Origin: Halieaceae bacterium
Lineage (GTDB): Bacteria; Pseudomonadota; Gammaproteobacteria; Pseudomonadales; Halieaceae
DNA: 64,000 nucleotides
Direction of reading: 5' to 3'
Assembly (NCBI GenBank): GCA_902631395.1
Contig: CACOYM010000005.1
Location: 62,001 to 126,000, forward strand
The number at the start of each line of letters is the position of its first letter. Within the stretch, counting starts at the first letter, position 1. A program made the position numbers and the translations under genes. Below, piece after piece: positions 29,055-64,000 of this stretch. Below the pieces are notes generated by a model. That model made no database searches. It was not told the DNA's origin and was given only the letters and a program-made list of their open reading frames with translations.

Positions 29055-29131
29055 GGCTACGTAGCTCAGCTGGTTAGAGCACAGCATTCATAATGCTGGG
29101 GTCGGTGGTTCAAGTCCACCCGTAGCTACCA
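29055..29131 (+). tRNA. tRNA-Met (anticodon CAT)
   Basis: A 77-base cloverleaf with encoded CCA. Acceptor GGCTACG pairs with CGTAGCT (one G-U at the end), the D arm has AGCTCAGCTGGTTAGAGC, the anticodon stem CAGCA/TGCTG encloses TTCATAA with anticodon CAT, and the T arm has GGTTCAAGTCC. It looks like elongator tRNA-Met, not the initiator, which needs an unpaired position 1-72 and GGG/CCC in the anticodon stem. An Ile2 tRNA with lysidine is less likely. It marks the left edge of the accessory block, and a decayed copy of its 3' half is found at 32741-32783. Confidence 0.95.
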
Positions 29132-29356
29132 CTTCTCCTTTGTTTTTCAATACCTTGCGAGCCAGCGAAAAATTCGGCAGCGACAACAAGATTGCTTTGC
29201 GGGGATTTTGTGAGGCCCTCGCGGTTACAAGCACTTAACAGCATTGATAAGCTCTGGATTCCGGGTTCTATAATCCACAGCACTAACTCCCCTCCCCCAA
29301 TGCCCCTGAAAATCTCCTACGGTGACCGCAGAAACGCCCGCATACCGCAGTCGCTC

Positions 29357-31006
29357 TCAATTCAAAGCCTTACCGACTTGATATCCTGAACCTCCACCCA
29401 AGCCGGGGCCAGGATGAGTCGACGCGCCAATATGGTGAAGATTTTTTATTGGAGTCTCGTGATTCCGCGTAGCCCTCAAAGGTCTCCACAATAAGTTTTG
29501 ATCTAACTTACAATCGCCTGAATAAGGATCACCTCCAACCAGATTCATATTAAGCTTCTCAAGGTCTGCAGGGGATAAAACAACCCTCTTCAAGGTGCGC
29601 TCTGATAGCCCAGGAAGGACTTGAGAAAGCCTTTCCATTATTCGGTCGGCGTAAGCCTCTCTCAAAGCCTCAGTCCATTCCCCGGATTCGGGGACGCTAA
29701 TAATGTTTGCCTCGTCTCCAAGTACTTGCCGGGGCAGTTCTTGGAGTTGCAACCAAAGAATCCATTTGCCCTCAGGCACGCGACTGATATCAAGTGCCGC
29801 CGGCTGACCGACCACAATCGTGGGGCGTCGCGGTAGATATCCAGCGTCTGCCGAATTTATCGATTCGCATATGCTATTGACGCCCTCGGTAACGTGGATC
29901 ATGGGTACATCGTCTAACTGTCGATCAACCCATTCGGGCTTCGAATCAAGCGCAAGATGGATTTGCATGTTGGAACGGCCGTATCGGAACTGACTGGCCG
30001 CTTTACTGACCTGTTCTGGGATAGGTGTGTTTCTAAGTAATCTTTGGTAGAGCTGGGTAGGGGTAACATTCGCGATAACCGCTTTGCTCGCCCGCAGTTC
30101 CTGGCCACTCGTCAAAATTACCCCTTTGGCCTTTTTCTCGGAAACTACGATCTCGTCTACGTCAGTTCCGCACCGAATAGCACCCCCGTTATCTTCGATC
30201 AGGCTGCTGAATGCCCTTACTAGGTTGGCGGAACCACCCTTGACAACGGGCATACCCGCTGTCTCGAGTGAAAAAGCTATTAGCTTCCCCATGTGCCCAG
30301 ATAGGGCGTCCTTAGGCGATAATCCAGTGTGTAATATCCATGGGGCGTACAAGCTACGCGCCAGTGGTGAGGCGAAACTCGACTCCAGCCAATCTGCGCA
30401 GGTTCCTAGCGCTTGTCCAAAAAATTTTACTGTGTTTGCGATTCCTCGCTTTCTAACTTGATTTAACAAAAACATTGCTGTGCTGAATTTACGAAGCTCA
30501 GAATTTAGCAGCCCAAACGTCAAATCAGCCGATTCCTCAATTGATTTAACCGCATTCAGGTAACCATCACCATTTGATGCGCCCAAAGCGTTGAAAGTTT
30601 GCAAATTCAACTCGCGATCAGTAGACAAAATCAGGCTGTCGCCAGTAGGCGTAACTACTCCAGTCGGCTTGTCAGTATTGCAATAAGAAAGGCCTCTGGC
30701 GTGAAGTTCCTCCGCTAATTCTTCATATGCGGGCGACAAAACAAACAGCGGATGCCAACCAGACAGCACATCATGCTTAAAGCCTGGTAGCGTTAACTCT
30801 TCAGTGCGGATACATCCACCAGGCTGATCACTACGCTCTAAAAGTAAAACTCTCGCGCCGGATCGTGAGAGCACTGCGCCACACACCAGTGAATTAATCC
30901 CTGTACCAACCAAGATATAGTCATAGGCAGCGTCAGTGTCGTCTTTCAACTTGAATTCCCCCACAAAAAGGCCATCCGCAGACTTTAAACTATCTGATCC
31001 CGCCAT
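29357..31006 (-). CDS. FAD-dependent oxidoreductase, phytoene-desaturase-like (PYROXD2 type)
   Basis: A 549-residue flavoprotein. The FAD-binding Rossmann motif is YILVGTGINSLVCGAVLSRSG (residues about 30-50), followed by LLERSDQPGGCIRTEE, and the C-terminus has the family signature GASTHPGPGLGGGSGYQ. It belongs to the CrtI/COG1233 group, but no carotenoid gene is near, and the closest described type is PYROXD2-like proteins of unknown substrate. ATG start. Base composition is more A/T-rich than in the core genes. It is the first gene after tRNA-Met and faces it tail to tail. About 297 bases separate it from the next gene upstream. Confidence 0.82.
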   Translation of the reverse strand: MAGSDSLKSADGLFVGEFKLKDDTDAAYDYILVGTGINSLVCGAVLSRSGARVLLLERSDQPGGCIRTEELTLPGFKHDVLSGWHPLFVLSPAYEELAEELHARGLSYCNTDKPTGVVTPTGDSLILSTDRELNLQTFNALGASNGDGYLNAVKSIEESADLTFGLLNSELRKFSTAMFLLNQVRKRGIANTVKFFGQALGTCADWLESSFASPLARSLYAPWILHTGLSPKDALSGHMGKLIAFSLETAGMPVVKGGSANLVRAFSSLIEDNGGAIRCGTDVDEIVVSEKKAKGVILTSGQELRASKAVIANVTPTQLYQRLLRNTPIPEQVSKAASQFRYGRSNMQIHLALDSKPEWVDRQLDDVPMIHVTEGVNSICESINSADAGYLPRRPTIVVGQPAALDISRVPEGKWILWLQLQELPRQVLGDEANIISVPESGEWTEALREAYADRIMERLSQVLPGLSERTLKRVVLSPADLEKLNMNLVGGDPYSGDCKLDQNLLWRPLRATRNHETPIKNLHHIGASTHPGPGLGGGSGYQVGKALN

Positions 31007-31302
31007 CCAAAAAGTCGAGGCATGCCATATCTACTCCGACGTAAGCATTGACCTTATATAGGCTGGCGGAATTGCTGTGTGCTCAAGCAAGCTAAAAGCT
31101 CTCCTCTCGTGCGATAGCTAGAATCTAAACGTAGCCGTTCTGACTAAAGAGCGTCAGAGCAGTGTCAGCAAGATCTCGCCCATAGAATGCTTGGCCGCCC
31201 CTACAGCTCTTCAGCCTAACTCAATAGCATGGCCCACACCTTGTGTGAGTGAGCGGTAATATCCCCATCCCTGTGCGCCATAAGTTGACGACAAAAGCTT
31301 CA
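31007..31302. other. non-coding spacer inside the accessory block
   Basis: No convincing gene, RNA or repeat is seen in these 296 bases. It must hold the promoter of the oxidoreductase gene and the end of the transcript from the saccharopine-dehydrogenase-like gene. A small inverted repeat, CACAC-CTT-GTGTG (about 31232-31244), is too short to call a terminator. Confidence 0.5.
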
Positions 31303-32496
31303 TCAGCAGTATGCAAAAGAGATTTTTATATGGTCGGCCAAATCAGGAGAGGATAGCCTTCCAAGTCCTGCCAGTTGCGCAAATACTTCGGCCAAAAATT
31401 CTTGAGGATCGATATGACCTGCTTCGGGCGAAAATACTCCGGTTGCCTCTATGTGCCCTTCTGACAGAAATTTAACGCCGCAGGCCAATGGTATGCCGGT
31501 CGCCGCGCCCATACTTATGCGCGACTCATTGCCGGCTTCTGTCGCTTCACCGACCCAAGACACACCGACAGAAGCCGGTTGAGAATTTTTGCGGCCAACA
31601 GCCAAGCCGTACATGACAGGAGGCGCTGCGCCATCTGTTTCCTTCGGCGGCAATGTCCTCTGACCCTCAAACCAAGTTAGCAGGCCTGCTGCACGCGACC
31701 GGCTGACAAGCCGCCAATTGACGAGACCTAGAATACCTTTAAGTATCAACGAATCGATGTCGCCGCCATGCGCCAAGTTAATGGCTTCCTGCAATTGCGG
31801 ATAATTACGGGGAAAAGTGACGGCCTCAGGATGACCAAAAATGTGCCCAGTGAATGCTGGCAAACCCGGAAATTGCACCGGCACTGGAGCGAGGGGTTTG
31901 ACCAACTCTGGCGCACCATTCCGATAGATTTCAACCATACCGGTCATTTGTTCAATGCCATGCAGCATTGCAGCATTGAGCCCCTCCTGTAACGACTGGT
32001 CCTCAGGCGTGGCGCCGCCCAAATCCCAGCCCGTGTATAAAGTCGACACCGAGTCAAGGTTTCGCAAAGCCATCAACGCCAACATATTAGATATGCCAGG
32101 ACTCGCACCCAGTCCAACAATGGCGCATATACCGGCGGCTTTGGCTGATGCGTCCAGTTCCAGCATTTTTAGTGTCGGTGCCCAATCATCACAAATGTCG
32201 ATGTACTGGCAATTTGTGTCAATTGCGGCTTGCAATATAGACACGCCAAAACGGTAGAAAGGCCCCGCCGTGTTTACCACTAAATCAGCGTCCGTCATCG
32301 CTTCGCGCATCGCCGTGGTATCACTGATGTCTAACCCGATTGCACTCACTTTGTCGCTCAATTCCGCCACAAATCCTCGGGCACTGTCAGCATTTCGATC
32401 TGCAACAACGATCCGCTCCACCGTGTCGAAATCTTGCATCGTGGCCACCGCATATCGACCCATCCCGCCACTTCCACCTATTGCTAGAACTCTCAT
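31303..32496 (-). CDS. Saccharopine dehydrogenase-like NAD(P)-binding protein
   Basis: A 397-residue protein with an N-terminal Rossmann motif GGSGGMGRYAVATMQ and the following VVADRN acidic strand end, then VVNTAGPFYRFG, all typical of the saccharopine dehydrogenase/LYS9 superfamily. The rest (GASPGISNMLA, then a substrate domain) fits this broad family, whose members include lysine catabolism, carboxynorspermidine and trans-acting enoyl reductase enzymes. The true substrate is not predictable. ATG start with GGAA upstream. It shares strand and A/T bias with its neighbours. Confidence 0.8.
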   Translation of the reverse strand: MRVLAIGGSGGMGRYAVATMQDFDTVERIVVADRNADSARGFVAELSDKVSAIGLDISDTTAMREAMTDADLVVNTAGPFYRFGVSILQAAIDTNCQYIDICDDWAPTLKMLELDASAKAAGICAIVGLGASPGISNMLALMALRNLDSVSTLYTGWDLGGATPEDQSLQEGLNAAMLHGIEQMTGMVEIYRNGAPELVKPLAPVPVQFPGLPAFTGHIFGHPEAVTFPRNYPQLQEAINLAHGGDIDSLILKGILGLVNWRLVSRSRAAGLLTWFEGQRTLPPKETDGAAPPVMYGLAVGRKNSQPASVGVSWVGEATEAGNESRISMGAATGIPLACGVKFLSEGHIEATGVFSPEAGHIDPQEFLAEVFAQLAGLGRLSSPDLADHIKISFAYC

Positions 32497-32574
32497 TAAG
32501 TTTTTTCCGTTCGGATATCGCCAATAAGCCTCTATGCCCGCGATTTATGCTGCAACCTGCATGCCAGGACCTCT

Positions 32575-32590
32575 CATAGCCTTGGCTATG
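32575..32590. promoter_or_regulatory. inverted repeat upstream of the saccharopine-dehydrogenase-like gene
   Basis: CATAGCC-TT-GGCTATG is a perfect 7-base inverted repeat with a 2-base centre, about 80 bases before the ATG at 32496. The symmetric form and position fit a regulator binding site. No matching regulator was identified. Confidence 0.3.
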
Positions 32591-32740
32591 GTCAGAATTT
32601 CTAGCTCCCTGCGCGGCTCTGAGGAACTTTTGTGGAGATCTGTTGAAACTTTGCGGGGCTTTCTAAGCTTTTTAGGTGCACTTAGCGTTTATTAAAGCAA
32701 GGTGAATTAAATCAGTCACGTAGGCTTTCAATCTTCGCAC

Positions 32741-32783
32741 TCACAATGCAGCAGTGGGGCTCAAAGTCCACCCGTGGCTAACA
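32741..32783 (+). pseudogene. decayed copy of the 3' half of tRNA-Met (att-like)
   Basis: This stretch resembles the tRNA-Met 3' half at 29087-29131. CACAATGC answers CATAATGC of the anticodon arm, AAGTCCACCCGT (32764-32775) is an exact 12-base match to the T arm and acceptor, and GGCTAACA answers AGCTACCA. Weaker likeness runs 5' to about 32717. It is on the same strand and in the same order as the tRNA, as expected for a direct repeat left by integration at a tRNA 3' end. It cannot fold as a working tRNA. Duplication of a tRNA followed by decay is another explanation. Confidence 0.55.
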
Positions 32784-32856
32784 TATTCCATATTCCTTCA
32801 ACGTCTCAGACCCCCAGTTATATCCTAAAACACCCTGAAGTCTTCATTGCGGGGGT

Positions 32857-34140
32857 TTACTCGATTATCGGGTCCACAAGGCCTAGCCAACCGGAATCCG
32901 GCCCTTCTAAAAGTACCCTCAATTTCTTAATAAACAGGGCAGCCTGGTAGCCATCAATTATTCGGTGGTCGAAGGAAGCTGACACATTCATCATCTTTCG
33001 AATAACAATCTCTCCGTCGAGCACGACTGGACGTTCGATTATTTTATTGGGAGCAAGGATTGCCACTTCTGGATAATTTATGACGGGTGTGGAGGTTATG
33101 CCACCTAATAATCCAAGACTAGTGATTGTAATGGTGGATCCTTTAAATCTATTAACAGTGGCTCTGTTACTTCTAACTGAATTTGTTATTTCGCTCAGTT
33201 CACTTGCACACTCCCGCAGACCAAGCCTTTGGGAGTCAAAAATAACGGGCACTAGGAGGCCATGGTCAGTTTGCGTTGCGATGCCTATATGGATCCCTTC
33301 GTACATCCGCAATGTTTTCTCGCTGTCATCATAACGAGCATTAAAAATCGGAAATTCAGGAAGCAACTCTGCCAGTGCGCGCATGAAGAAAGGCAACAAA
33401 GTTACTTTTGTTTGCTGCTGGGAACTGGAAACGTTCATTCGAGCGCGAGTTGCCTCTAGTTCAGTCAAATCAAATTCTTCAACGTAAGAGAAGTGCGGAA
33501 TTTTAGTTTTCGCCTCTGCAACTTTTTCAGCGGTCTTTCCTCGGACACCAGAAATTTTCAGTTCAGTACATTTTCCAAGGTCGATAACCTGCGCTTCCGA
33601 TGACTCACTATCGCGACGTGAAGTGATGTCCTCTAGGTCTCTCGAAGTAATAATGCCCCCGGGGCCAGTTCCATTTATATTTTCTAGAGCTACACCAAGC
33701 TCTGAGGCCTGGCGCCGAATCGCAGGAGCAGCTAAAACTTTTTTCTTGGTATCACTCGACCTTGCTGATTGCTCCAGTTGATCTGACTCACTCAGGGTTT
33801 CCTCTGGAGGGTATGAGTATGAGGAAGCGGCTTTACTGTGCTCGATTGAGGTCTCATTGTTAGAATCAGGCATTGCCTCACTTTTTTTATCGCTATCGCC
33901 GTGATCGATAGAAACAAGCAAACTTCCAACTACGACGACGTCGCCATCTTGAACTTTTACCTCTCTTACGACCCCATTTACCGGCGAGGGAATTTCGATT
34001 GTGACTTTTTCAGTCATTATTTCGATTAAAACCTGGTCCTCAGATACTGATTCACCTGGTTTTACTAAGACAGCTGCAACTTCCGCTTCTACGATGCCCT
34101 CTCCGACATCGCTCAACTTAACTTTATGCTCCTCCCCCAT
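32857..34140 (-). CDS. bkdB: Branched-chain 2-oxoacid dehydrogenase E2 (lipoamide acyltransferase)
   Basis: A 427-residue E2 with one N-terminal lipoyl domain (1-80; lipoyl Lys in IEIMTEKVTIEI), a Ser/Glu-rich linker, a peripheral subunit-binding domain (about 132-170, LAAPAIRRQASELGV with GTGPGGIITSRDL) and a C-terminal acyltransferase domain with the catalytic HRIIDG motif in SFDHRIIDGYQAA. It transfers branched acyl groups from E1 to CoA. Layout E1a-E1b-E2 behind a divergent Lrp regulator matches the Pseudomonas bkd operon, which favours branched-chain over pyruvate substrates. It lies one base after the E1-beta stop. Unlike the Pseudomonas operon, no lpdV (E3) gene follows. Confidence 0.9.
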   Translation of the reverse strand: MGEEHKVKLSDVGEGIVEAEVAAVLVKPGESVSEDQVLIEIMTEKVTIEIPSPVNGVVREVKVQDGDVVVVGSLLVSIDHGDSDKKSEAMPDSNNETSIEHSKAASSYSYPPEETLSESDQLEQSARSSDTKKKVLAAPAIRRQASELGVALENINGTGPGGIITSRDLEDITSRRDSESSEAQVIDLGKCTELKISGVRGKTAEKVAEAKTKIPHFSYVEEFDLTELEATRARMNVSSSQQQTKVTLLPFFMRALAELLPEFPIFNARYDDSEKTLRMYEGIHIGIATQTDHGLLVPVIFDSQRLGLRECASELSEITNSVRSNRATVNRFKGSTITITSLGLLGGITSTPVINYPEVAILAPNKIIERPVVLDGEIVIRKMMNVSASFDHRIIDGYQAALFIKKLRVLLEGPDSGWLGLVDPIIE

Positions 34141-34141
34141 A

Positions 34142-35146
34142 TTAATGTGCTGCTAGAGATTGGAGAGCAGTGACCACTCTAGCCGGCGAAGGGAAATAAT
34201 CCCACTCAAAAGCATGCGGGTAAGGAATATCCCATCCAGCTACTCGCTGGGTCGGCGCCAGCAGGTGATAAAAGCAGCGTTCGGTTATCAGTGCGGACAG
34301 CTCTGCCCCAAAGCCAGCAAATTTCGAGGCCTCGTGCAGTATTAAACACCGTCCAGTTTTCTTGACTGACTCCTCAACAGTGCTGATATCTAGAGGCACG
34401 ATAGATCTAAGATCAATCAGTTCGGCGTCCACTCCGCTCTCTTTGATTCCCGCCTGCGCTACGTGGACCATAGTGCCGTAAGCAAGCACTGTTGCCTCGC
34501 TTCCCGAGCGTATAATCTGTGCTTTACCCAGCGGCACAGAATAATATCCGGCAGGCACATCGCTGCCATATTGCTCCGACCAAGGTTCCAGAGGCTTATC
34601 GTAGTGTCCGTCAAATGGCCCGTTATAAAGCCGTTTAGGTTCTAAGAAAATGACGGGGTCATCACACTCTATTGCAGAAATTAGCAGTCCCTTGGCGTCG
34701 TAGGGGTTTGAGGGTATGACCGTCTTGAGTCCCGTGACGTGTGCAAAAATTGCTTCTGGTGATTGGCTGTGAGTCTGCCCACCAAATATTCCTCCGCCGT
34801 AAGGTGCTCTAACGGTGATAGGTGCCTGAAAGTCGTTATTTGAGCGGTATCTCAATCGAGCCGCTTCTGATACCAATTGGTCATAAGCTGGGAGAATGTA
34901 ATCGGCGAATTGAATTTCTGCCACTGGCCGAAGTCCTTCTGCAGCCATACCAATCCCAGTAGCGATAATTCCTCCTTCCGACAGCGGTGTATCAAAACAG
35001 CGATGTCGACCATGTTTTTCCTGTAAACCATCAGTGACTCGAAAAACACCGCCAAAAAATCCAACATCCTCCCCGAATATCAATACGTCGGGGTCTCTCT
35101 CCATCATCACATCGAGCGCGCTATTTAACGCGTGAACGAGACTCAT
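34142..35146 (-). CDS. bkdA2: Branched-chain 2-oxoacid dehydrogenase E1 beta subunit
   Basis: A 334-residue transketolase-like E1-beta. It holds FGEDVGFFGGVFRVTDGLQ, the Glu-containing thiamine-diphosphate contact PLSEGGIIATGIG, GIFGGQTHSQSPEA and FLEPKRLYNGPFDG, all close to Pseudomonas BkdA2 as I recall it, with the same C-terminal end region (GWDIPYPHAFEWDYFPSP). I start at ATG 35146 (SLVHALNSALDV); a TTG three codons upstream abuts the E1-alpha stop. It pairs with BkdA1 to form the decarboxylating E1 heterotetramer. Confidence 0.92.
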   Translation of the reverse strand: MSLVHALNSALDVMMERDPDVLIFGEDVGFFGGVFRVTDGLQEKHGRHRCFDTPLSEGGIIATGIGMAAEGLRPVAEIQFADYILPAYDQLVSEAARLRYRSNNDFQAPITVRAPYGGGIFGGQTHSQSPEAIFAHVTGLKTVIPSNPYDAKGLLISAIECDDPVIFLEPKRLYNGPFDGHYDKPLEPWSEQYGSDVPAGYYSVPLGKAQIIRSGSEATVLAYGTMVHVAQAGIKESGVDAELIDLRSIVPLDISTVEESVKKTGRCLILHEASKFAGFGAELSALITERCFYHLLAPTQRVAGWDIPYPHAFEWDYFPSPARVVTALQSLAAH

Positions 35147-35155
35147 AGCCACCAA

Positions 35156-36388
35156 TCAAATGCCCAATTCTTTCAATTGTTCAACATTCCGCCAATCAGG
35201 CTCGCTAAATACCCCATCAAACATACTGGCAACAGGAGGCTTTGATTTGCCCAGTACACCTATCGCCTCCGCTTCCTTAATCGATTCCGAGACCGAACTA
35301 TGAATCGCTTTTGTCATTTTTTCGTGCTGATCAGCAGACCACTCACCCGCTTTAATAAGATAGTTTTTCAGCCTATCTATCGGGTCACCCAAAGGCCAAC
35401 TCGTTGGCTCTTCTGCTGGCCTATAACGCTTAGGATCATCACTGGATGAATGTGCTCCAGCCCTATAAGTAAAAAATTCTATTAGTGTCGCACCAAAGCC
35501 AGCTCGTGCCCTTTCGGCTGCCCAATCGAGTACCGAAAATACCGCCAGCACATCGTTGCCATCTACACGTATGCCTGGAATACCGTAAGCGATGCCTTTA
35601 GCGGCTATGGTTGTATGCTCGCTAGAGGCGATACCGGAGAATGTTGAAATTGCCCATTGGTTGTTTGTGACTCCTAGAATAACTGGCGCGTTGTATACGC
35701 TGGCAAAAGTAAGAGCCTCGTGAAAAGCGCCCTCGGCGGTGCTGCCATCGCCTATGAATCCTATCGCGATGTCCGGCTTACCTCGATAGGCCTTCGCCAT
35801 TGCCCAACCAACTGAATGACCAAATCTAGTTCCAACATTTCCGGATAGTGAATAAAATCCAAATTCTTTTGCGGAGTACAGCACTGGAAGCTGCTTGCCG
35901 GCGAGTGGGTCCTCGCGATTATTGAAGATCTGATTAACAAGTTTTAAAAGAGGATAATCCCTAGCGATTAGCCAACCGACCTGCCTGTAAGTTGGGAAAC
36001 ACATGTCGCCGTCTCGCAATGCCAAAGACGGAACAACTCCGAGTGCCTCTTCGCCTCGGCTAGTAAGGAAAAAACTCGTCTTCCCTTGGCGCTGTATTCT
36101 GAGCAGTTTTTCGTCGAAAACTCTGGTTATTGTCATGTACTCGAGAGCCTTCCTATACACAGAGGCGCTCAGTCCAGGTATCCAATCTCCCTCTGCGACA
36201 TCGTCATCAGTCAATGTGCGCACAAGGTGGAAGGGTAACTGGCGGAGATTCTCTGACGGTTCGGAGATCTCTGGTTTCGCCACTGGAGCGAATTTGAGGA
36301 GTTCAATCTCACTAAAGTCGGGAGAATCCCCCGGTCTAGTTTTAGGTTCGGGAACATGCAATCCGTTTTTTTTTGTTTTACGAGACAA
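35156..36388 (-). CDS. bkdA1: Branched-chain 2-oxoacid dehydrogenase E1 alpha subunit
   Basis: A 410-residue E1-alpha. The thiamine-diphosphate motif runs from GFIGDGSTAEGAFHEA to GVTNNQWAIST, and the phosphorylation-loop region is YRAGAHSSSDDPKRYR. The family N-terminus LHVPEP and MCFPTYRQ are present. It decarboxylates the 2-oxoacids from Val, Leu and Ile. Start is TTG at 36388; there is no ATG or GTG in frame upstream and no clear Shine-Dalgarno. It is the first gene of bkdA1-A2-B and faces the Lrp-type regulator across 155 very A/T-rich bases. Confidence 0.92.
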   Translation of the reverse strand: MSRKTKKNGLHVPEPKTRPGDSPDFSEIELLKFAPVAKPEISEPSENLRQLPFHLVRTLTDDDVAEGDWIPGLSASVYRKALEYMTITRVFDEKLLRIQRQGKTSFFLTSRGEEALGVVPSLALRDGDMCFPTYRQVGWLIARDYPLLKLVNQIFNNREDPLAGKQLPVLYSAKEFGFYSLSGNVGTRFGHSVGWAMAKAYRGKPDIAIGFIGDGSTAEGAFHEALTFASVYNAPVILGVTNNQWAISTFSGIASSEHTTIAAKGIAYGIPGIRVDGNDVLAVFSVLDWAAERARAGFGATLIEFFTYRAGAHSSSDDPKRYRPAEEPTSWPLGDPIDRLKNYLIKAGEWSADQHEKMTKAIHSSVSESIKEAEAIGVLGKSKPPVASMFDGVFSEPDWRNVEQLKELGI

Positions 36389-36429
36389 TTTATGTTTTCT
36401 GCAATTGAGCCAGTGTTTTCACCACTCAG

Positions 36430-36435
36430 TTTATA
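36430..36435 (-). promoter_or_regulatory. -10 box candidate for the bkd operon
   Basis: Minus-strand TATAAA (plus TTTATA at 36430-36435) is a good -10 box about 42 bases before the bkdA1 start. No good -35 box exists 16-18 bases upstream; instead the palindrome at 36440-36463 lies there. This is the arrangement expected for a promoter that needs an activator, as BkdR activates bkd in Pseudomonas putida. Inference. Confidence 0.4.
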
Positions 36436-36439
36436 CTTG

Positions 36440-36480
36440 AATAAGAAAGATAATTTTCTTATTTTTTACTAAATAAGAAA
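36440..36480. promoter_or_regulatory. palindromic operator candidate between bkdA1 and bkdR
   Basis: AATAAGAAA (36440-36448) and TTTCTTATT (36455-36463) form a perfect 9-base inverted repeat with a 6-base spacer, and the half-site AATAAGAAA recurs at 36472-36480. Three copies of the same 9-mer in 41 bases, midway between divergent genes, strongly suggest a site for the adjacent Lrp-type regulator. Lrp-family proteins bind several A/T-rich sites as oligomers, which fits. Confidence 0.6.
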
Positions 36481-36487
36481 TTAATTT

Positions 36488-36516
36488 TTTACAAAATAAT
36501 AAAAATGAAATAATAT
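36488..36516 (+). promoter_or_regulatory. sigma-70 promoter candidate for the Lrp-type regulator
   Basis: TTTACA (36488-36493), a 17-base spacer and TAATAT (36511-36516) give a near-consensus promoter, predicted start about 36523, 21 bases before ATG 36544. The third operator half-site ends 8 bases upstream of the -35 box, so self-regulation is plausible. Confidence 0.6.
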
Positions 36517-36543
36517 TTCCATTACTTCGATTTTTAGAAAAAT

Positions 36544-36993
36544 ATGGAAGATCACCTCCAAATTTTAAGGCTATATCAACTGCACCCAGATTTATCGCGA
36601 GCAGAGTTAGCAGAGAAGATAGGTATGTCGCACTCTGCCCTTTGGAAGCGCCTAAAAAAACTGGAAGCCTTAGGCTTAATAGAAGGGCGTCAGAATGTCC
36701 TTAATCAGGATGCCCTCGGCCTAAAAGTAACCGTAATAGCCGAGGTGAAGTTGTCGAAAAATACGACCCAGGTCTTGGGTGAGTTTGAGTCAGCCGTGCG
36801 CAAGCACTCAAAAATACAATCGTGTTACGCCATGAGTGGTGACAGCGACTACTTACTAAAAATTATCGATAAAGACATAAAGAACTATGAAGAGTTTCTT
36901 AGGGAAACTTTGGCAAATCTCCCACACGTGTCCTCGCTTAAATCAAGCTTCGCTTTGAAGTGCGTGAAGAACTCCACAGTTCTGCCAATTTGA
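36544..36993 (+). CDS. bkdR: Lrp/AsnC family regulator, BkdR-like
   Basis: A 149-residue Lrp/AsnC protein with an N-terminal winged helix-turn-helix (about 1-60, LSRAELAEKIGMSHSALWKRLKKLEALGLIEGR) and a C-terminal RAM ligand-binding domain (about 65-145, YAMSGDSDYLLKI). Divergent placement next to bkdA1 is that of Pseudomonas bkdR, which activates bkd in response to branched-chain amino acids. ATG at 36544; no clear Shine-Dalgarno precedes it. The assignment as the bkd regulator rests on family and position. Confidence 0.85.
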   Translation: MEDHLQILRLYQLHPDLSRAELAEKIGMSHSALWKRLKKLEALGLIEGRQNVLNQDALGLKVTVIAEVKLSKNTTQVLGEFESAVRKHSKIQSCYAMSGDSDYLLKIIDKDIKNYEEFLRETLANLPHVSSLKSSFALKCVKNSTVLPI

Positions 36994-37753
36994 TTGTGCT
37001 ACGTAACCTCTAGCGCCTCTCGTCATGCGGGCTAACGGTAGTCAGTGGAGAGTAGATTTCACGTCTACAAAAGCAAACACGCAAATAACATCTCTATTAG
37101 AACATCGCATCTCTCCGCGGACCCCATTAGCGATCTTGATCGGAGCATTTCGCGCCTTGGGAAACAGCCTATACCAGAGCAGTTTTTTATGGCTCAGCCA
37201 GGCAGCACACGTACCTCGCCCTTAGACGATACCAGCGAGCGGCTGGCAGATTCTAAGTCTTCTGCGCCCCACTCTCTCAGTCTTTCATAAGCTAGCATCA
37301 CGATGCATAGCATAGAAATTTAGCCATTCTTGCCGGGTTAGGGTCGGATAGAGTATCAGTGCCCTCGTAAGGAACTTATCACTGCAACGCTCAAGTGAAG
37401 GGCGAACTGACACTGTGATTGCGCCAGTATCCAGCCAGTTGCGATCATTAAAAGTCGATAGAGTGACGTCTGCTCACTACCGAGCATGTTGAGTTCCCTC
37501 CGCAAGCAATCACATAGAGAGCGCACCTGAACTAATCAAATCCAATTTGCGGGGCTGCCTGCGGACGGCGGAAGTAAAAGCAAAGCGACAAATAATGATC
37601 GCGTGATTATTAATTTCTCCCACTTGCTTTTGCGGAATTAAATCTTGAACCTAAACACTACAGTCATGCAGTCTAGAGACACCGTTGCGGAAGTAATAAA
37701 AGTGATGTCGCTGAAGTTCCTGGGGAACAGATTAAAATTCCGGTTCTAAGATA
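36994..37753. other. 760-base region without a recognisable gene
   Basis: Only short open frames exist here (longest about 81 codons at 37045-37290), with no Shine-Dalgarno, no family likeness and no codon pattern like the neighbours. No tRNA, terminator or clear repeat was found. It is long for so compact a genome and may be the remains of a lost gene, or a leader region of the MFS gene. Confidence 0.5.
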
Positions 37754-39445
37754 ATGTCCGAACTGCTATCTAAGGAAAGAATAACAGCACCGCCAGACTA
37801 CAATCGTTGGCGTGTTGCAGTTGCGTCAATTGCGATTCACCTTTGCATTGGATCAGTTTATGCGTGGAGCATTTTTAATCCAGCGCTGACAAAGATAAGA
37901 GGGGTAGTTGCCCCGTCAGGTGATGATTGGACCTTAGGCCAAGTGGTATGGATTTTTACAGTCGCAATCGTTTTTCTTGGCCTGGCCGCAGCTTTAGCCG
38001 GGAAGTGGCTAGAGGAAGTAGGCCCTCGAAAAGTCGGTGTGTTAGCTGCTTGTTGCTGGGGTGGGGGCTACATCATTGGTTCACTTGGCATTTACACACA
38101 TCAACTTTGGTTAATTTACTTTGGATATGGGGTCATTGGCGGATGTGGACTTGGTTTAGGTTACGTATCGCCGGTCAGCACTCTGATTCGGTGGTTTCCA
38201 GATCGTCGTGGGATGGCCTCTGGTCTCGCGATCATGGGATTTGGCGGGGGCGCGATAATTGGCGCACCGATCAAAGCGAAACTGCTGGAGATATTTTATC
38301 GGCAACCTGATTTTTTAGGCTCTGTTTCACAAGTTGATGTAGTCACAAGCAATGGCAGGCGATTCGCTGATGTACAGGGCGACAAGATAGAGGTTGTAAT
38401 CTGGGGTGCCCAAGGCGTGAAAGATATATCGACGGCCGGATTTGAGGGCGTCTATGTGGTGAACTCGGGCGCTACCGGAGCCGCAGAGACCTTCGCTGTA
38501 TTGGGGTTGATGTATTTGGCCGTGATGTTGGCGGCGGCTTTTTCGTATCGGATACCAGCAGCTGACTGGCAGCCACCAACGTCGGCGCCTGTTCTCCATA
38601 AAAAAAACAATGACATGATTTCATCAGAGGATGTTCTAATGACAGACGCATTGAGAACACCCCAGTTTTATCAGTTGTGGTTAATGCTTTGCCTAAACGT
38701 CACAGCTGGCATAGGTGTACTCGGGGTTGCGAAGACCATGATCACAGAAATTTTCGGCTCAAGTCTGCCCTCAGTGGTTGACGCGACCTTTGCTGCCACC
38801 TACGTAGTTATGATTGGCGTTTTTAATATGGCAGGAAGATTTTTTTGGGCAACCACTTCTGACTTCATTGGAAGGAAGACAACTTACTGGTGCTTTTTCC
38901 TCATCGGAATAGTTTTGTACGTATCGATTCCCATTACAGCGCGTCAGATGACGGTGAACCCATCAATCATTTTTCTCGTCTATTTCTACGCAGCTACAAT
39001 GATTATTTTTTCAATGTATGGCGGAGCTTTTGCCACTATCCCTGCCTACTTGGCTGATGTGTTCGGTACGAAGCATGTTGGGGCAATCCACGGTCGGCTT
39101 TTGACTGCGTGGGCGACTGCGGGGGTGTTGGGACCACTGGCAATCACTTCCTTACGCCAAAGTTCTGTGAGTGAGGCGATCCGTAACCTGGCTAGCAGTG
39201 TCGATCCCGCAAAATTTGAGAGTAAGTTTGGAGCGCCAATTTCTCAATTAGAGCTTTTAGTCGAACAAAAAACTGTGACCATTGCTAATCTTCTGAAAAT
39301 TGCCCCATTGGACACAGTGGACCCAACCAGCACCATCTACAATTCAACGATGTATTTGATGGCCGGCCTTTTAGTTATCGCGTTAATCAGTAACGCCCTG
39401 ATGAGACCAGTGAGTCCTAGATACCATTCGAATTGGTCGACTTAA
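37754..39445 (+). CDS. MFS transporter of the OFA (oxalate/formate antiporter) family
   Basis: A 563-residue major facilitator with 12 or so membrane helices. The N-terminal HLCIGSVYAWSIFNPAL, GGCGLGLGYVSPVSTLIRWFPDRRGMASGLAIMGFGGGA and C-terminal IPAYLADVFGTKHVGAIHGR segments are typical of the OFA group, which exchanges small carboxylates. A soluble insert of about 60 residues lies after helix 6 (about 185-250), larger than in OxlT. ATG start, poor Shine-Dalgarno. Because it lies beside a branched-chain oxoacid operon, a monocarboxylate or oxoacid substrate is possible but unproven. A/T-rich like the rest of the block. Confidence 0.87.
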   Translation: MSELLSKERITAPPDYNRWRVAVASIAIHLCIGSVYAWSIFNPALTKIRGVVAPSGDDWTLGQVVWIFTVAIVFLGLAAALAGKWLEEVGPRKVGVLAACCWGGGYIIGSLGIYTHQLWLIYFGYGVIGGCGLGLGYVSPVSTLIRWFPDRRGMASGLAIMGFGGGAIIGAPIKAKLLEIFYRQPDFLGSVSQVDVVTSNGRRFADVQGDKIEVVIWGAQGVKDISTAGFEGVYVVNSGATGAAETFAVLGLMYLAVMLAAAFSYRIPAADWQPPTSAPVLHKKNNDMISSEDVLMTDALRTPQFYQLWLMLCLNVTAGIGVLGVAKTMITEIFGSSLPSVVDATFAATYVVMIGVFNMAGRFFWATTSDFIGRKTTYWCFFLIGIVLYVSIPITARQMTVNPSIIFLVYFYAATMIIFSMYGGAFATIPAYLADVFGTKHVGAIHGRLLTAWATAGVLGPLAITSLRQSSVSEAIRNLASSVDPAKFESKFGAPISQLELLVEQKTVTIANLLKIAPLDTVDPTSTIYNSTMYLMAGLLVIALISNALMRPVSPRYHSNWST

Positions 39446-39605
39446 ATACAAATTCTGGTGGGAGTCTGCCTAACATTGACGTGCCATGTTACAGAGTGTG
39501 GCTGAAGCATACGAAGCTTCCACCTTTCCGCCTGAGTTACTCTCGGCCCTAGGTACAGTGATGCTGCAAATAACATAGCATCGGTAAAAAAATAGGAGGC
39601 AAATA

Positions 39606-39965
39606 ATGGCGCGAGTAGTGGTGGCAGGTATCGTGGAGTTGCCGTCTGACGTTAGAGATGAAGCGCTGATAAAAGGTAAGGAACTCATTGAGGGTGCCTA
39701 CACAGAAAAAGGCTGCATTCACTACTTGTGGACAGCTGACCTGAACCATATCGGCCGCATCGTAATCTACGAAGAGTGGGAGAGCGAGGCCGACCTTGAG
39801 GCGCACTTGCGAGGCAAGTGGTACATAAACATGCACAGTCATCTATCGCAGTACAATCTTATCCATGCGGAAACGAATAAGTTCCGTGTCGACCTGAAAG
39901 AGCCCGTTTACGGGGAGGATGGAGTCGCAACAGGGTTTTTCTCAGACGAGAATAAGAATATTTAG
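39606..39965 (+). CDS. ABM-domain protein (putative quinol monooxygenase, YgiN-like)
   Basis: A 119-residue protein with a dimeric alpha/beta-barrel ABM fold pattern: first strand ARVVVAGIVELP, helix with EGAYTEKGCIHYLWTADL, and WESEADLEAHLRGKW. ABM proteins include YgiN-type quinol monooxygenases, heme-degrading enzymes and members with no known role. A strong Shine-Dalgarno AGGAGG (39592-39597) precedes ATG 39606, so high expression is likely. It is the last gene of the accessory block. The C-terminal 20 residues are polar and not part of the fold. Confidence 0.75.
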   Translation: MARVVVAGIVELPSDVRDEALIKGKELIEGAYTEKGCIHYLWTADLNHIGRIVIYEEWESEADLEAHLRGKWYINMHSHLSQYNLIHAETNKFRVDLKEPVYGEDGVATGFFSDENKNI

Positions 39966-41137: not shown

Positions 41138-41224
41138 ATTCTCACCCCCCAGGGTTCGCATTCTACCTAAATCCGCGCAAAAGTTATTTTCTGTCCTACA
41201 CTGGCGAAGTTCAGGAGAATGTCC

Positions 41225-58872: not shown

Positions 58873-60092
58873 CACAACACAATCAGCATCAGTCCCGCCG
58901 CGCCCGTCAGCAAAGCGACTCGGGCGAAACCCAAGCTATCCGCCCCTATACCCAACAGCGCCGCGCCTAATGCCGGCGCACCCAGTGTCAGCATAGTCCA
59001 AATACTCATCACGCGACCCCGATAACCAGTATCGGCAATGAGCTGTATCAGGGTTTGCGAGCCGGTGCCCGCCAGCGTCGTGACAACGCTCAAACAAACG
59101 ACCCAGCACGCAAGGCCCGTCATACCCGAGAACCACTGTAAACTCATGAGGTTCAGCGCGGCCAGGGCGATGGCCGCGCACACCAGCATTAAGAGCCGCT
59201 CGAGATCCGCTGATTGGCGGCTTACCAGAAGTCCGCCAAGGACAGACCCCAAACCCGCCATCGCGACAAGGGTTGCCAGATCAGTGGAATCACCCATCAG
59301 TAACTGGCCCGACAAAGCGGGCAGCAACTCGATCAGTGTGCGGCCCAACAAACCGTTCAAAGTCGCCAAAGCGAGTAGCAATCGGAGATCTACTCGGCGC
59401 AATAAATACTGGTAACCGTCCTGAAACTGCCGCCACAACGAGGTCGACGTCTGTTCCGGTTTCTGGTGCATGACACGGAGCAGCGACAAGCCAAGGAAGG
59501 AAGCGGTGAACATCATCGCGGCCATCACCCACGCGGCGGCCACGCTGACTTGAGCCACCAGCGCCGCGCCCAAAGCCGGACCGATCATCCGCGCAGTGTT
59601 AAACGACATCGCCGAGTAACCGACTGCACTCGGAAGTGCCTCGCGATTGACCAATAGTGTTACCAGCGCCAGGCGCATGGGGGAATGCAATGAGGTTGCC
59701 ACACCGAGGATAGCCGCCAAACAGGCTAACACCGCGGGGTCATTGGCCCCTGTCCAGGTCGCGACAGCACCCAGTATGGCGATGCTGCTGTGCAACACCA
59801 TCGACAAACGTAGCCCCTGGCGCGGATTGACCCTGTCAGAAAGAATGCCGAACCAAGGCGATAACAATAGCGCCGGGGCCAACATCAAGGCACTGACCAA
59901 TCCCACCCAGGTCGCTGAGTGGGTGAGATCCCAAGCGCTCCATCCGAGCAAAAACCGCAGTAACCACGCCCCTAAACTGGAAAACCAACTGGCGGGGTAA
60001 TAACGACGAAAACGCGGGTCTGACAGCGCAGAACGATGCACCTGTCGTGTTTCACGACACTCCAAAAAATGCTCACTTGCTTTTTCAGTCAT
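58830..60092 (-). CDS. MFS transporter, EntS-like
   Basis: A 420-residue major facilitator with 10-12 helices and a WFSSLGAWLLRFLLGWSAWDLT N-terminal segment, the DRVNPRQGLRLS loop 2-3 motif, and ALPSAVGYSAMSFNTARMIGPALGAAL, as in the EntS/transmembrane-effector group (PF05977 type). Members export siderophores and other small molecules; the cargo here is unknown. ATG 60092 is preferred to a TTG 14 codons upstream, which would overlap the LexA box. The LexA box at 60100-60119 is only 8 bases before this ATG, so SOS control is possible. Confidence 0.82.
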   Translation of the reverse strand: MTEKASEHFLECRETRQVHRSALSDPRFRRYYPASWFSSLGAWLLRFLLGWSAWDLTHSATWVGLVSALMLAPALLLSPWFGILSDRVNPRQGLRLSMVLHSSIAILGAVATWTGANDPAVLACLAAILGVATSLHSPMRLALVTLLVNREALPSAVGYSAMSFNTARMIGPALGAALVAQVSVAAAWVMAAMMFTASFLGLSLLRVMHQKPEQTSTSLWRQFQDGYQYLLRRVDLRLLLALATLNGLLGRTLIELLPALSGQLLMGDSTDLATLVAMAGLGSVLGGLLVSRQSADLERLLMLVCAAIALAALNLMSLQWFSGMTGLACWVVCLSVVTTLAGTGSQTLIQLIADTGYRGRVMSIWTMLTLGAPALGAALLGIGADSLGFARVALLTGAAGLMLIVLCYAKRECVLSAGSP

Positions 60093-60105
60093 GCTCAAAT
60101 ACTGT
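60077..60105 (+). promoter_or_regulatory. promoter candidate for imuA overlapping the LexA box
   Basis: TTGCTT (60077-60082) and TACTGT (60100-60105) are 17 bases apart; the -10 box lies in the left half of the LexA box, so bound LexA would block it. Predicted start about 60112. This leaves a leader of about 140 bases before the imuA ATG. Confidence 0.45.
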
Positions 60106-60119
60106 CTATTTATACAGTA
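60100..60119. promoter_or_regulatory. LexA (SOS) box
   Basis: TACTG-TCTATTTATA-CAGTA fits the gammaproteobacterial LexA consensus TACTG-N10-CAGTA exactly in both outer pentamers, extended to ATACTGT/ACAGTAT. It lies between the divergent MFS and imuA genes. A functional LexA-like repressor is thus implied in the genome; the lexA gene is not in the window. Confidence 0.85.
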
Positions 60120-60250
60120 TTTTTGTTGTTGCAATGAAAGCTCTCACCCATAGTCGGGTAGGAGCGGAGATTCGGCGCGGCAGTACAGAAAAAAATGCAA
60201 AAAAGAGCACAAAAGCGAATGCAGGAAAAAGGTCAGAAAAGGAGTGCATC

Positions 60251-61027
60251 ATGAATTATCTACTTGAAGATGTTTTCCGTCGCGCAGATACCTGGCGAGG
60301 TATGGGCCAATACAGTATGGATGTGTCTGGAAACGGTCAACAATCCCAGCTTTTTCCACACCCAGAAAATGATGCGGCCAATGGCGATAGACACTCCTTT
60401 TCCGGTGTCAGAACGGGTTTCGACATGCTGGATGCGCAACTTTATAACAGGGGCTGGCCATCTGGAGGATGCATTGAAGTCGTCAGCGACCAGTGTGGCC
60501 TGGACGCAATGGGCATTTTCATGCCTCTGATGAAAAGTCTGTCAGGACAAGAACGATGGCAGGTATTTATTAACCCGCCTTACACCCCTTATTCGCCGCT
60601 CCTTGCCAAAGAAGGTATCGATCTCCGAGAAGTTATGCTGGTGCATCCTAAGAGCAAAGACGAAGTCCTTTGGTCAACCGAGCAGGCATTACGTAGCAAT
60701 ACCTGTAGTGCGGTCTTTGCCTGGTTAGGTGCAATCGAATACCGCTATGCCGAGCTCAGAAAAATTCAGCTGGCTGCAGCCAGTCACGGCACGCCTGCCA
60801 TTCTGTTTAGATCCTCCGGAGCACTGGAACAAGCTTCACCGGCCAGCCTGAAAATCCAAATCAACGGCTATCGCCAGGTCAAAATCCTTAAACAACGCGG
60901 CGGTCGAGAAAGCTCGACCATCCCTTTGCCCGCGGATGAAACGTTGCCCGATACAAGCTTCACCTGGGCATCATTGGAACGGCCCATGGCATCACCCGAT
61001 CACATCGATTATCAACCCTCTGCCTAA
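60251..61027 (+). CDS. imuA: SOS-linked ImuA/SulA-like protein (RecA-related, no P-loop)
   Basis: A 258-residue protein with the ImuA pattern: GFDMLDAQLYNRGWPSGGCIEVV, then RWQVFINPPYTPYSPLLAKEGIDL, VLWSTEQALRSNTCSAVFAWLG and ILKQRGGRESS near the end. ImuA is a RecA-like accessory factor of the ImuB-DnaE2 mutagenic translesion polymerase. ATG 60251 has AGGAG 6 bases upstream. An in-frame ATG at 60134 would add 39 Lys/Arg-rich residues but has no Shine-Dalgarno. The LexA box upstream fits SOS control. Unlike the usual operon, imuB and dnaE2 do not follow; OsmC and katG do. A SulA-like division inhibitor is the other reading, less favoured by length and motifs. Confidence 0.82.
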   Translation: MNYLLEDVFRRADTWRGMGQYSMDVSGNGQQSQLFPHPENDAANGDRHSFSGVRTGFDMLDAQLYNRGWPSGGCIEVVSDQCGLDAMGIFMPLMKSLSGQERWQVFINPPYTPYSPLLAKEGIDLREVMLVHPKSKDEVLWSTEQALRSNTCSAVFAWLGAIEYRYAELRKIQLAAASHGTPAILFRSSGALEQASPASLKIQINGYRQVKILKQRGGRESSTIPLPADETLPDTSFTWASLERPMASPDHIDYQPSA

Positions 61028-61132
61028 ACACTATCAGGCGATGTACCGCTATCACCGGGATATGCTACCGCGCTGGCGTCATACCGGCAGAGCAGCTATC
61101 CTTTCGCCCGATTTTAACCAGACAAAATAGCC

Positions 61133-61570
61133 ATGCAGGATTTCCCCCATCATTATCGCTGTGTCGCAACCGCCAACGCAGATCAATCCCGCGTCCGCGT
61201 CTCTAGTCAAGGATTGGAGGATCTGACCACCGACGTACCTCGCGAATTCGGCGGACCGGGCGATCAGTGGTCCCCCGAAGCGCTCTTGATTGCAGCAGTT
61301 GCAGATTGTTTTGTGCTGACTTTTAGAGCCATGGCAGCGCCCTCACAGATAGCTTGGCATGCGCTCGACTGCGACGCAACGGGCACATTGGAGCGCGTCA
61401 ACCGCACCACCCAATTTACTACAATCCAATTGGCTATACGCATCAGCGTGCCCGATGAAATTGAAGAAGAGAAGGTCCTGCGCGTGCTGAGAAAAGCCGA
61501 GGAAACCTGCCTCATCACCAACTCACTGACCGCAACCGTAACCCTGACAGTGGAAATCACCCGCCAATAA
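61133..61570 (+). CDS. OsmC/Ohr family protein
   Basis: A 145-residue OsmC-fold protein. SPEALLIAAVADCFVLTF carries the first reactive Cys and ETCLITNSL the second, the pair that reduces organic hydroperoxides in OsmC and Ohr enzymes. ATG at 61133, 105 bases after imuA on the same strand. It belongs to the YhfA-like/OsmC subgroup, where peroxide activity is not always shown. With katG next door it suggests an oxidative-stress neighbourhood. Confidence 0.82.
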   Translation: MQDFPHHYRCVATANADQSRVRVSSQGLEDLTTDVPREFGGPGDQWSPEALLIAAVADCFVLTFRAMAAPSQIAWHALDCDATGTLERVNRTTQFTTIQLAIRISVPDEIEEEKVLRVLRKAEETCLITNSLTATVTLTVEITRQ

Positions 61571-61590
61571 AATTTCAAAAAACGCACCAC

Positions 61591-61612
61591 AAAAAACCCC
61601 GCTAAGGCGGGG
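61591..61612 (-). terminator. rho-independent terminator of katG
   Basis: Read on the minus strand: a GC-only stem CCCCGC/GCGGGG (61597-61602 with 61607-61612) around a 4-base loop, followed by TTTTTT (61596-61591). It lies 24 bases after the katG stop. On the plus strand, the osmC transcript would form the same stem but without a T-run, so it is mainly a katG terminator. Confidence 0.85.
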
Positions 61613-61635
61613 CTCTTGAATGCGCAATGCTTCGA

Positions 61636-63897
61636 TTATTGAGCAACACTCACAACCACATTGCCGGAGTCTTCGATATCAAATCGATCCGCGTCCATTA
61701 CTTTGGTCCACGCGCTCGCGAAGTCCTCAATAAATCGCTGACGGCTCTCATCAAACGCGTAGAACTCTACGACTGCTCGCAGCTCTGAGTTAGAGCCAAA
61801 AACCAGATCGAACTCCGTTGCAGTCCACCTCAAATCGCCCGTAAGACGATCTCTGCCCTCGAATACGTAAGCTTCAGAGGAGGGTACCCAAACAGTATTC
61901 ATGTCGAGCAGATTTACGAAGAAGTCATTGCTCAGTACACCGGGGCGATCTGTCAAAACGCCTCTATCGCTGCCATAAGCGTTCGCATTCATGGCACGCA
62001 TGCCACCCAACAGCACAGTCATTTCTGACACTGACAGATTGAGCATGTCGGCCTTGTCAATGAGCGCCTGCGAAGGCGACATGAAGCCGAGGTCAGCCAT
62101 GTAATTCCGGAAGCCATCATGGCGCGGCTCCATAACTGACCATGACGCTGCATTCACTGAGCCTTCAATCGCGTCAACACGCCCTGGCGTAAAGGGGATA
62201 GATACTTCGACACCAAACTCCTCAGCCGCCTGCTCAACACCCACATTGCCTGCTAAGACGACCACATCAGCGAGTGATACTTGCTTGCCACGTGACGATC
62301 CGCTGTTGAAATCGTCCTGCACTTCTTCCAGCGCAGTGATGACCGCTAACAACGCCTCGGGATGATTGATCGCCCACTGATTCTGCGGTGCAAGGCGAAT
62401 GCGCGCGCCGTTGGCACCACCACGCATATCCGTGCCGCGGTAAGTCGAAGCCGATGCCCAAGCCGTGCTGACCAGCTGCGTGTTGCTCAGACCACTACCA
62501 GAGATCGCTGTCTTCAGCTCGCGAATATCCTGATCACTGACTAGATTGTAGTCGCGCTCTGGGAGCGAATCTTGCCATGCCAGTGCTTCCGCGGGCACGT
62601 CATCGCCCAGGTATCGGATCTTGGGTCCCATATCTCGGTGAGTTAGCTTGAACCAGGCTTTTGCAAACGCCAGCTCGAATTCTTCCGGTTTCGCGAGGAA
62701 ACGCTGGGAAATTTCGCGATAGCTTGGGTCGAACTTCAACGACAGGTCAGTGGTAAACATAACGGGTGCATGGCTCACCCCCTTTAGGTGCGCGTCGGGC
62801 ACCGTGCCCGCTGCCGCGCCGTCCTTGGGCTGCCACTGTAGTGCGCCTGCCGGGCTGCGGGTCTGCTCCCACTCGTAAGCAAATAGATTGGCCAGGTACA
62901 TCATCGACCATTGCGCTGGCGTCGACGTCCAGGCTCCTTCCAGACCGGATGTCACCGTATCCTCAGCATTGCCCTTGCCACAGATGTTCTTCCAACCGAA
63001 ACCCTGCTCGACAATCGCTTCACCGGTCGGCTCGGAACCAACACAATCCTCGGGCTTGTGCGCGCCATGAGCTTTGCCGAAAGAGTGCCCGCCTGCGATG
63101 AGCGCAACGGTCTCTTCATCATTCATCGCCATACGACCGAAGGTCTCGCGAATATCATGCGCCGCCAGCACAGGATCAGGGTTCCCGTTCGGGCCCTCAG
63201 GGTTCACGTAAATTAGTCCCATCTGCACCGCCGCAAGACCCGAACGCAGTTTACGACCCTCAGCGTAGCGCTCGTCAGCGAGCATCTTCGCCTCTGGACC
63301 CCAGTAGACCCACTCGGGCTCCCAGTCGTCAGTGCGGCCACCGGCGAAGCCAAATGTCTTGAACCCCATATTTTCCATGGCCACGTTACCCGCGAGTACC
63401 AAGAGGTCGGCCCAGGAAATCTGGTTGCCATACTTCTGTTTGATCGGCCAAAGCAATCGTCGCGCCTTGTCCAGATTGCCATTATCAGGCCAGCTGTTCA
63501 GTGGCTCAAAGCGCTGTTGCCCGCCGTCTGCCCCGCCGCGGCCGTCAGAAGTGCGATACGTGCCAGCACTGTGCCACGCCATGCGAACGAAGAAAGGCCC
63601 GTAGTTACCATAATCCGCTGGCCATCAAGGCTGAGAAGTCGTCAGCGTGTCATTGATATCTATCTTTAAGGCCTCAAGATCAAGTCGAGCAAAATCAGCA
63701 GCGTAATCAAAATCTGCGCCCAATGGGTTAGTGCCGCGCTCGTTCTGCCGCAGCGGTGTCAGATCAAGACTGGTCGGCCACCAAGCTTGTGTGCTCTTTG
63801 GCGTACTGCGCGCGATCGAATCCGCAACAGGGAGTGCGACCAGAGTTAGTGTCAGTGCGGTGTGGGCAAACGCCGTTTTCATTATCGTCATTTTCAT
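61636..63897 (-). pseudogene. katG: Periplasmic catalase-peroxidase KatG, interrupted by in-frame TGA
   Basis: The 754-codon frame has a signal peptide (residues about 1-28), then [11 protein letters not shown], the catalytic [11 protein letters not shown] (distal Arg, Trp, His), Tyr in [11 protein letters not shown], Met in GRMAMNDEE, proximal His in [10 protein letters not shown], and the complete second domain. Codon 91 (63627-63625) is TGA. The sequence reads [15 protein letters not shown], where family members have SQPWWPADYG, so TGG has become TGA by one base; nothing else is damaged and no frame shift is needed. Start ATG 63897 has GAGGA 7 bases upstream. Downstream of the stop, ATG 63582 could restart translation, but without the signal peptide. 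A sequence error, a fresh nonsense mutation or read-through cannot be told apart here. Confidence 0.85.
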
Positions 63898-64000
63898 CAC
63901 GTTGTCCTCAAAAATTACTTCCTCGACGGATAAAGTAACGTACCCAGCTATTCAATGAAAAGGTGATTGTTTAGAAAATAACGATCGGAATTTTCAATCA

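Follow-up and report, generated by a model that had tools for sequence, protein, structure and literature searches.

A lone in-frame TGA in an otherwise conserved katG of one draft Halieaceae genome

We found that the katG gene for catalase-peroxidase in the analysed stretch of a Halieaceae draft genome (64,000 nucleotides, hereafter the window) is interrupted by an in-frame TGA at codon 91. This is very probably a single-base nonsense change that is confined to this draft genome and lies in an otherwise normal, strongly conserved katG. The base would be either not real, as a consensus or assembly error, or very young, as a strain-level null allele. If it is real, translation would end at codon 91 and give a fragment of 90 residues that lacks the heme-site motifs, and probably no useful quantity of full-length KatG would be made. 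The original prediction had offered three readings: a fresh break, mis-sequencing and UGA read-through. The first two stand, and we lean slightly towards an error over a fresh mutation, given how strongly the genus retains katG. Read-through has the least in its favour, because the tRNA-Trp, the other located tRNAs, prfB and TGA usage are all ordinary and the stop is not shared.

The katG frame, on the minus strand, consists of 754 codons, of which 752 are sense codons, one is the TGA and the last is a terminal TAA (coordinates are given in Table 1). The frame is identical on both sides of the TGA, and the 648 codons that follow contain neither a second stop nor a frameshift. The translation of this downstream part alone scored 1060.1 bits against the NCBIfam profile PRK15061 (cut-off 981) and 945.5 bits against TIGR00198 (cut-off 770.25). 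It thus resembles bacterial KatG in exceeding both curated cut-offs and in the RMAWH and GGHSFGK motifs, which both occur in the katG translation, RMAWH lying 3' of the TGA. It differs in that, among the genomes searched, only the window's genome has a TGA at codon 91, where it breaks the open reading frame of the whole protein. The frame and the relatives agree with the earlier description of a katG complete but for one TGA at a conserved Trp, with both flanks in one frame. That description also held all heme-site residues to be preserved, which was borne out for RMAWH and GGHSFGK, the motifs looked at. Judged from its sequence, the locus is a katG gene or allele, and a full-length KatG product is only hypothetical. 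The hydrophobic N-terminus is common to the relatives; the first 90 codons may therefore include a signal peptide, and a periplasmic KatG would plausibly fit.

Table 1. Features of the katG locus, with positions in the window
Feature	Position	Strand	Basis
katG, catalase-peroxidase, interrupted at codon 91	61636..63897	-	Frame reading and KatG profile matches
In-frame TGA, codon 91, Trp in relatives	63625..63627	-	Sequence and comparison with relatives
First 90 codons: hydrophobic N-terminus and N-terminal part of KatG, ahead of RMAWH	63628..63897	-	
Open frame of 648 amino acids beyond the TGA, from the Met of RMAWH onwards	61636..63582	-	
G+C-rich inverted repeat with a T run after it, 3' of the katG stop	61591..61613	-	By eye
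Gene for an OsmC-family protein, convergent with katG	61133..61570	+	Family match

To place codon 91 among relatives, 57 genomes of the genus, including the window's own (G000), were searched with the full-length KatG of a relative (G023). A KatG match was found in 52 of the 57 genomes, and 51 rows in 50 genomes spanned codon 91 (table counted by hand); in two further genomes (G075 and G064), the match stopped short of this codon. Only one of the 50 genomes, the window's own, had a stop at codon 91, so that the same stop was not seen in two or more related genomes, as would be expected of a conserved programmed in-frame stop. The five genomes in which no KatG match was found (G020, G061, G014, G013 and G033) were each less than 90% complete, whereas KatG was present in all 17 genomes with completeness of at least 90% and contamination of at most 5%.

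Codon 91 was also read directly in 109 loci. Trp was found in 107 of these, the window had TGA, and the remaining locus (L024) was missed by the search pattern; it reads WWPPDYG and thus has the Trp intact. This conservation exceeds chance. Four contig-end fragments (G026, the second copy in G011, G071 and G028) likewise have Trp at codon 91; they share 73–79% DNA identity with the window, and none is close to it. The original prediction that relatives carry Trp at this position was confirmed by this comparison with the relatives read, in which Trp was found throughout and TGA in the window's genome alone. Internal stops flagged in the KatG of G053 and G045 were natural C-terminal stops. One further locus (L108), from a record titled Bordetella parapertussis MAG, had a katG with just 59% identity to the query; it was the one locus of 110 that was set aside, and it enters none of the counts. 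A viral contig (L111) matched the 18 bases around the stop exactly. We took this match as chance, because it lies antisense to a long frame, which by eye resembles a phage DNA polymerase, and because just 19 bases in 10.9 kb of the contig match the window.

We then examined how strongly katG has been constrained, using pairwise dN/dS counts with the stop codon masked. Between the window's gene and the nearer KatGs, dN was 0.048–0.061, with dS at least 2.1 or beyond correction; against the nearest fragment (G026), dN was 0.050 and dS 1.57 over 196 codons. The mean dN/dS was 0.023 for the 11 of 18 pairs with the window's gene that were computable; the 103 pairs that did not include this gene averaged 0.030. 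Measured against four outgroup sequences, the window's gene had a mean dN of 0.0886, compared with 0.0664–0.0992 for the 14 other taxa, of which three were partial. This value was the third highest, above 12 of the 14 other taxa, and lies inside the range of the stop-free genes; being on the high side, it leaves room for a slight relaxation on this katG. A three-point estimate, made by hand from these values, put the branch leading to the window's gene at about 0.03 nonsynonymous changes per site. Assuming synonymous change near 1 for this branch, a value we infer because dS is saturated, katG would have been unconstrained over no more than a few per cent of it. Synonymous dating failed, as dS was saturated or almost saturated for all relatives compared.

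These estimates exclude an old decay of katG, because dN to near relatives is about 0.05 where dS is about 1.6 or more. The presence of one internal stop is what an old pseudogene would share with this locus, but such a reading has next to no probability given 648 clean downstream codons and a downstream part that keeps 93% identity to the KatG of G023 despite saturated synonymous divergence. The earlier view that the lesion is very recent or not real is supported by the low dN and by the 648 open codons downstream.

A real and very recent nonsense mutation, by which the strain would have lost its only detected catalase-peroxidase, as models of leaky functions in peroxide defence would allow, is a serious possibility, with a likelihood somewhat under even. 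The intact downstream codons are how a young null allele would look. In PMC10924460, some marine organisms are described as having no katG and depending on the KatG of helpers, a parallel that would apply if this organism is marine. The strong conservation of the gene, seen in the mean dN/dS of the window's pairs, argues against this reading, as does the lack of any sign of recurrent katG loss in the genus, where the genomes without a match are all among the less complete ones. Were the mutation real, the first start codon past the TGA would be the ATG of RMAWH, 15 codons on. The Arg before this Met is the distal heme arginine of KatG. A product restarted at this Met is expected to be inactive, because it would have neither the N-terminus nor that Arg. 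Ordinary leakage at UGA would yield a little full-length KatG. The locus would then be a conserved peroxide-defence gene with a null allele that has not yet decayed, and of modest value for work on leaky functions.

That the stop is instead a consensus or assembly error in the draft, with living cells of the species carrying an intact katG, is a reading to which we give an even chance. The draft genome comprises 2.30 Mb in 60 contigs and is 88.8% complete. In this 88.8% complete draft, neither a second KatG nor a heme catalase (PF00199) was found, so that the interrupted gene is the sole catalase-type gene detected, in a genus whose more complete genomes all have KatG. Errors elsewhere in the assembly were sought by scanning 414,922 bp (about 18% of the draft) for stops lying between coding-like stretches of one frame. 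Among the 21 stops found, 18 had a start within 8 codons, as between neighbouring genes. Two of the remaining three (C5b 49911 and C1 46051), for which the next start was distant, were set aside as they lie antisense to long frames; the third was the katG stop. Within the 415 kb sampled, katG is thus the only gene credibly interrupted by a single stop.

The window's genes were also compared with syntenic stretches of G024 and G011, covering those stretches with a counterpart there; shadow frames, whether antisense or out of frame, were discounted by eye, as were start-site extensions. No other internal stop or frame break was found in the genes compared. A possible frame break at position 41200 of the window proved to be antisense of a COX15-type gene and outside the ABC protein. 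The assembly is not generally noisy, which weakens the error reading but does not remove it; in our judgement, one wrong base per 415 kb is not rare in a draft. If the stop is such an error, it merely warns against calling gene loss from one draft.

To obtain a wider base rate of katG stops, 390 genomes of the order were searched for KatG (E up to 1e-50), and 272 of them gave a match. Among the matches listed, 67 rows besides the window's genome were flagged as containing a stop, and all 67 were read. The flags mostly reflected alignments that overran the natural end of the gene: 66 of the 67 rows had Trp at the codon-91 position and stops only at the natural C-terminal end. The stop scan ran from 50 codons ahead of the site onwards in 65 rows; another row (L258), which was off-pattern, was read separately and is intact as far as its terminal stop. 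The exception was a katG (L236, G147:C225:5081-7521) in which Trp is kept at the codon-91 position but one internal TAG replaces another conserved Trp. As in the window's gene, one conserved Trp codon is replaced by a stop and the genome is incomplete (79% complete, compared with 88.8%), but the Trp, the stop codon and the family of the order are all different. This only other internal katG stop met is likewise a lone one, which favours an error. Among the matches listed, codon 91 is not a recurrent stop site.

Finally, we asked whether UGA might be read as sense in this organism. Gene calls with a stop in the 414,922-base genome sample numbered 343, of which 185 ended in TGA, 94 in TAA and 64 in TAG. 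This differs from the many in-frame TGA codons and few TGA stops expected if UGA were read as Trp. The prfB gene keeps its usual in-frame UGA frameshift site, AGGGGGTATCTTTGAC, which is regulatory and presupposes that RF2 reads UGA. No UCA anticodon was present among the 34 tRNAs located (32 plus two in the window) in the 88.8% complete genome. The single tRNA-Trp found has the anticodon CCA, A9, G24 and a 5-bp anticodon stem. In PMC13092985, UGA reading is linked with A9C, G24A or an anticodon stem of 4 bp in tRNA-Trp; this tRNA-Trp has none of these. On these features, the organism uses UGA as a normal stop codon, and recoding or special decoding of the katG UGA finds no support here.

In a functional read-through, a near-cognate tRNA-Trp would place Trp at the UGA, and some full-length KatG would be made, perhaps more under stress. 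We consider this improbable. The residue at the site is Trp, the one inserted by leaky UGA reading in E. coli. PMC7918605, which describes TGA as leaky and this insertion as very infrequent, reports bacterial genes that contain in-frame stops and have dN/dS below 1; it also cites a TGA of B. subtilis that was read through at 6% with a normal prfB. The window's katG resembles those cases in having one in-frame stop with both sides under constraint. However, to guard against sequencing errors, that study kept only stops shared by at least two genomes, and the window's stop, seen in one genome and in no other genus relative spanning the codon, would not have counted there. The make-up of the tRNA-Trp and the lack of a UCA anticodon among the located tRNAs also speak against read-through. 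Still more doubtful is the further proposal that the TGA is real and fixed in the species, with katG expressed at a low, stress-sensitive level through UGA read as Trp, so that peroxide defence would be dialled by translational fidelity. The locus would be of wide interest only if read-through were proven. The matches listed by a literature search for KatG and UGA readthrough were mycobacterial surveys, in which UGA often meant Uganda, and a search on periplasmic KatG in marine bacteria contributed nothing; we make no claim that such a case is absent from print.

Selenocysteine insertion or A-to-I editing of the mRNA at the UGA has hardly any probability. All that would suit these mechanisms is that the stop is a UGA and that inosine is read as G. 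Against them, the best hits for SelB (103.4 bits, cut-off 242.25) and tRNA-Sec (38.3, cut-off 47) fell below the cut-offs in the 88.8% complete genome. Editing by TadA mostly needs UACG, as stated in PMC12255301, but the katG UGA has GAUG in the same register. The local RNA fold at the stop was not notable (z −1.29).

The inverted repeat 3' of katG is likely an intrinsic terminator. The OsmC gene, katG and a DUF885 gene are flanked by imuA on one side and on the other by an impB/mucB-type gene, after which comes a DNA polymerase III alpha-type gene (window 60047-64000 and L157 3081-10578). From this gene order, the arrangement looks like peroxide-defence genes inside a split mutagenesis cassette. 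Elsewhere in the window, a region of about 10.4 kb (29133-39606) that follows a tRNA-Met gene (29055-29131) has no counterpart in G011, where its flanks are about 120 bp apart; at the same place, G024 carries about 18.6 kb in which no long match to the window occurs. The region contains genes for an amine oxidase, a saccharopine-dehydrogenase-like protein, an Lrp/AsnC-type regulator and an MFS transporter, together with keto-acid dehydrogenase genes of the E1 alpha, E1 beta and E2 types, and may be an insertion hotspot.
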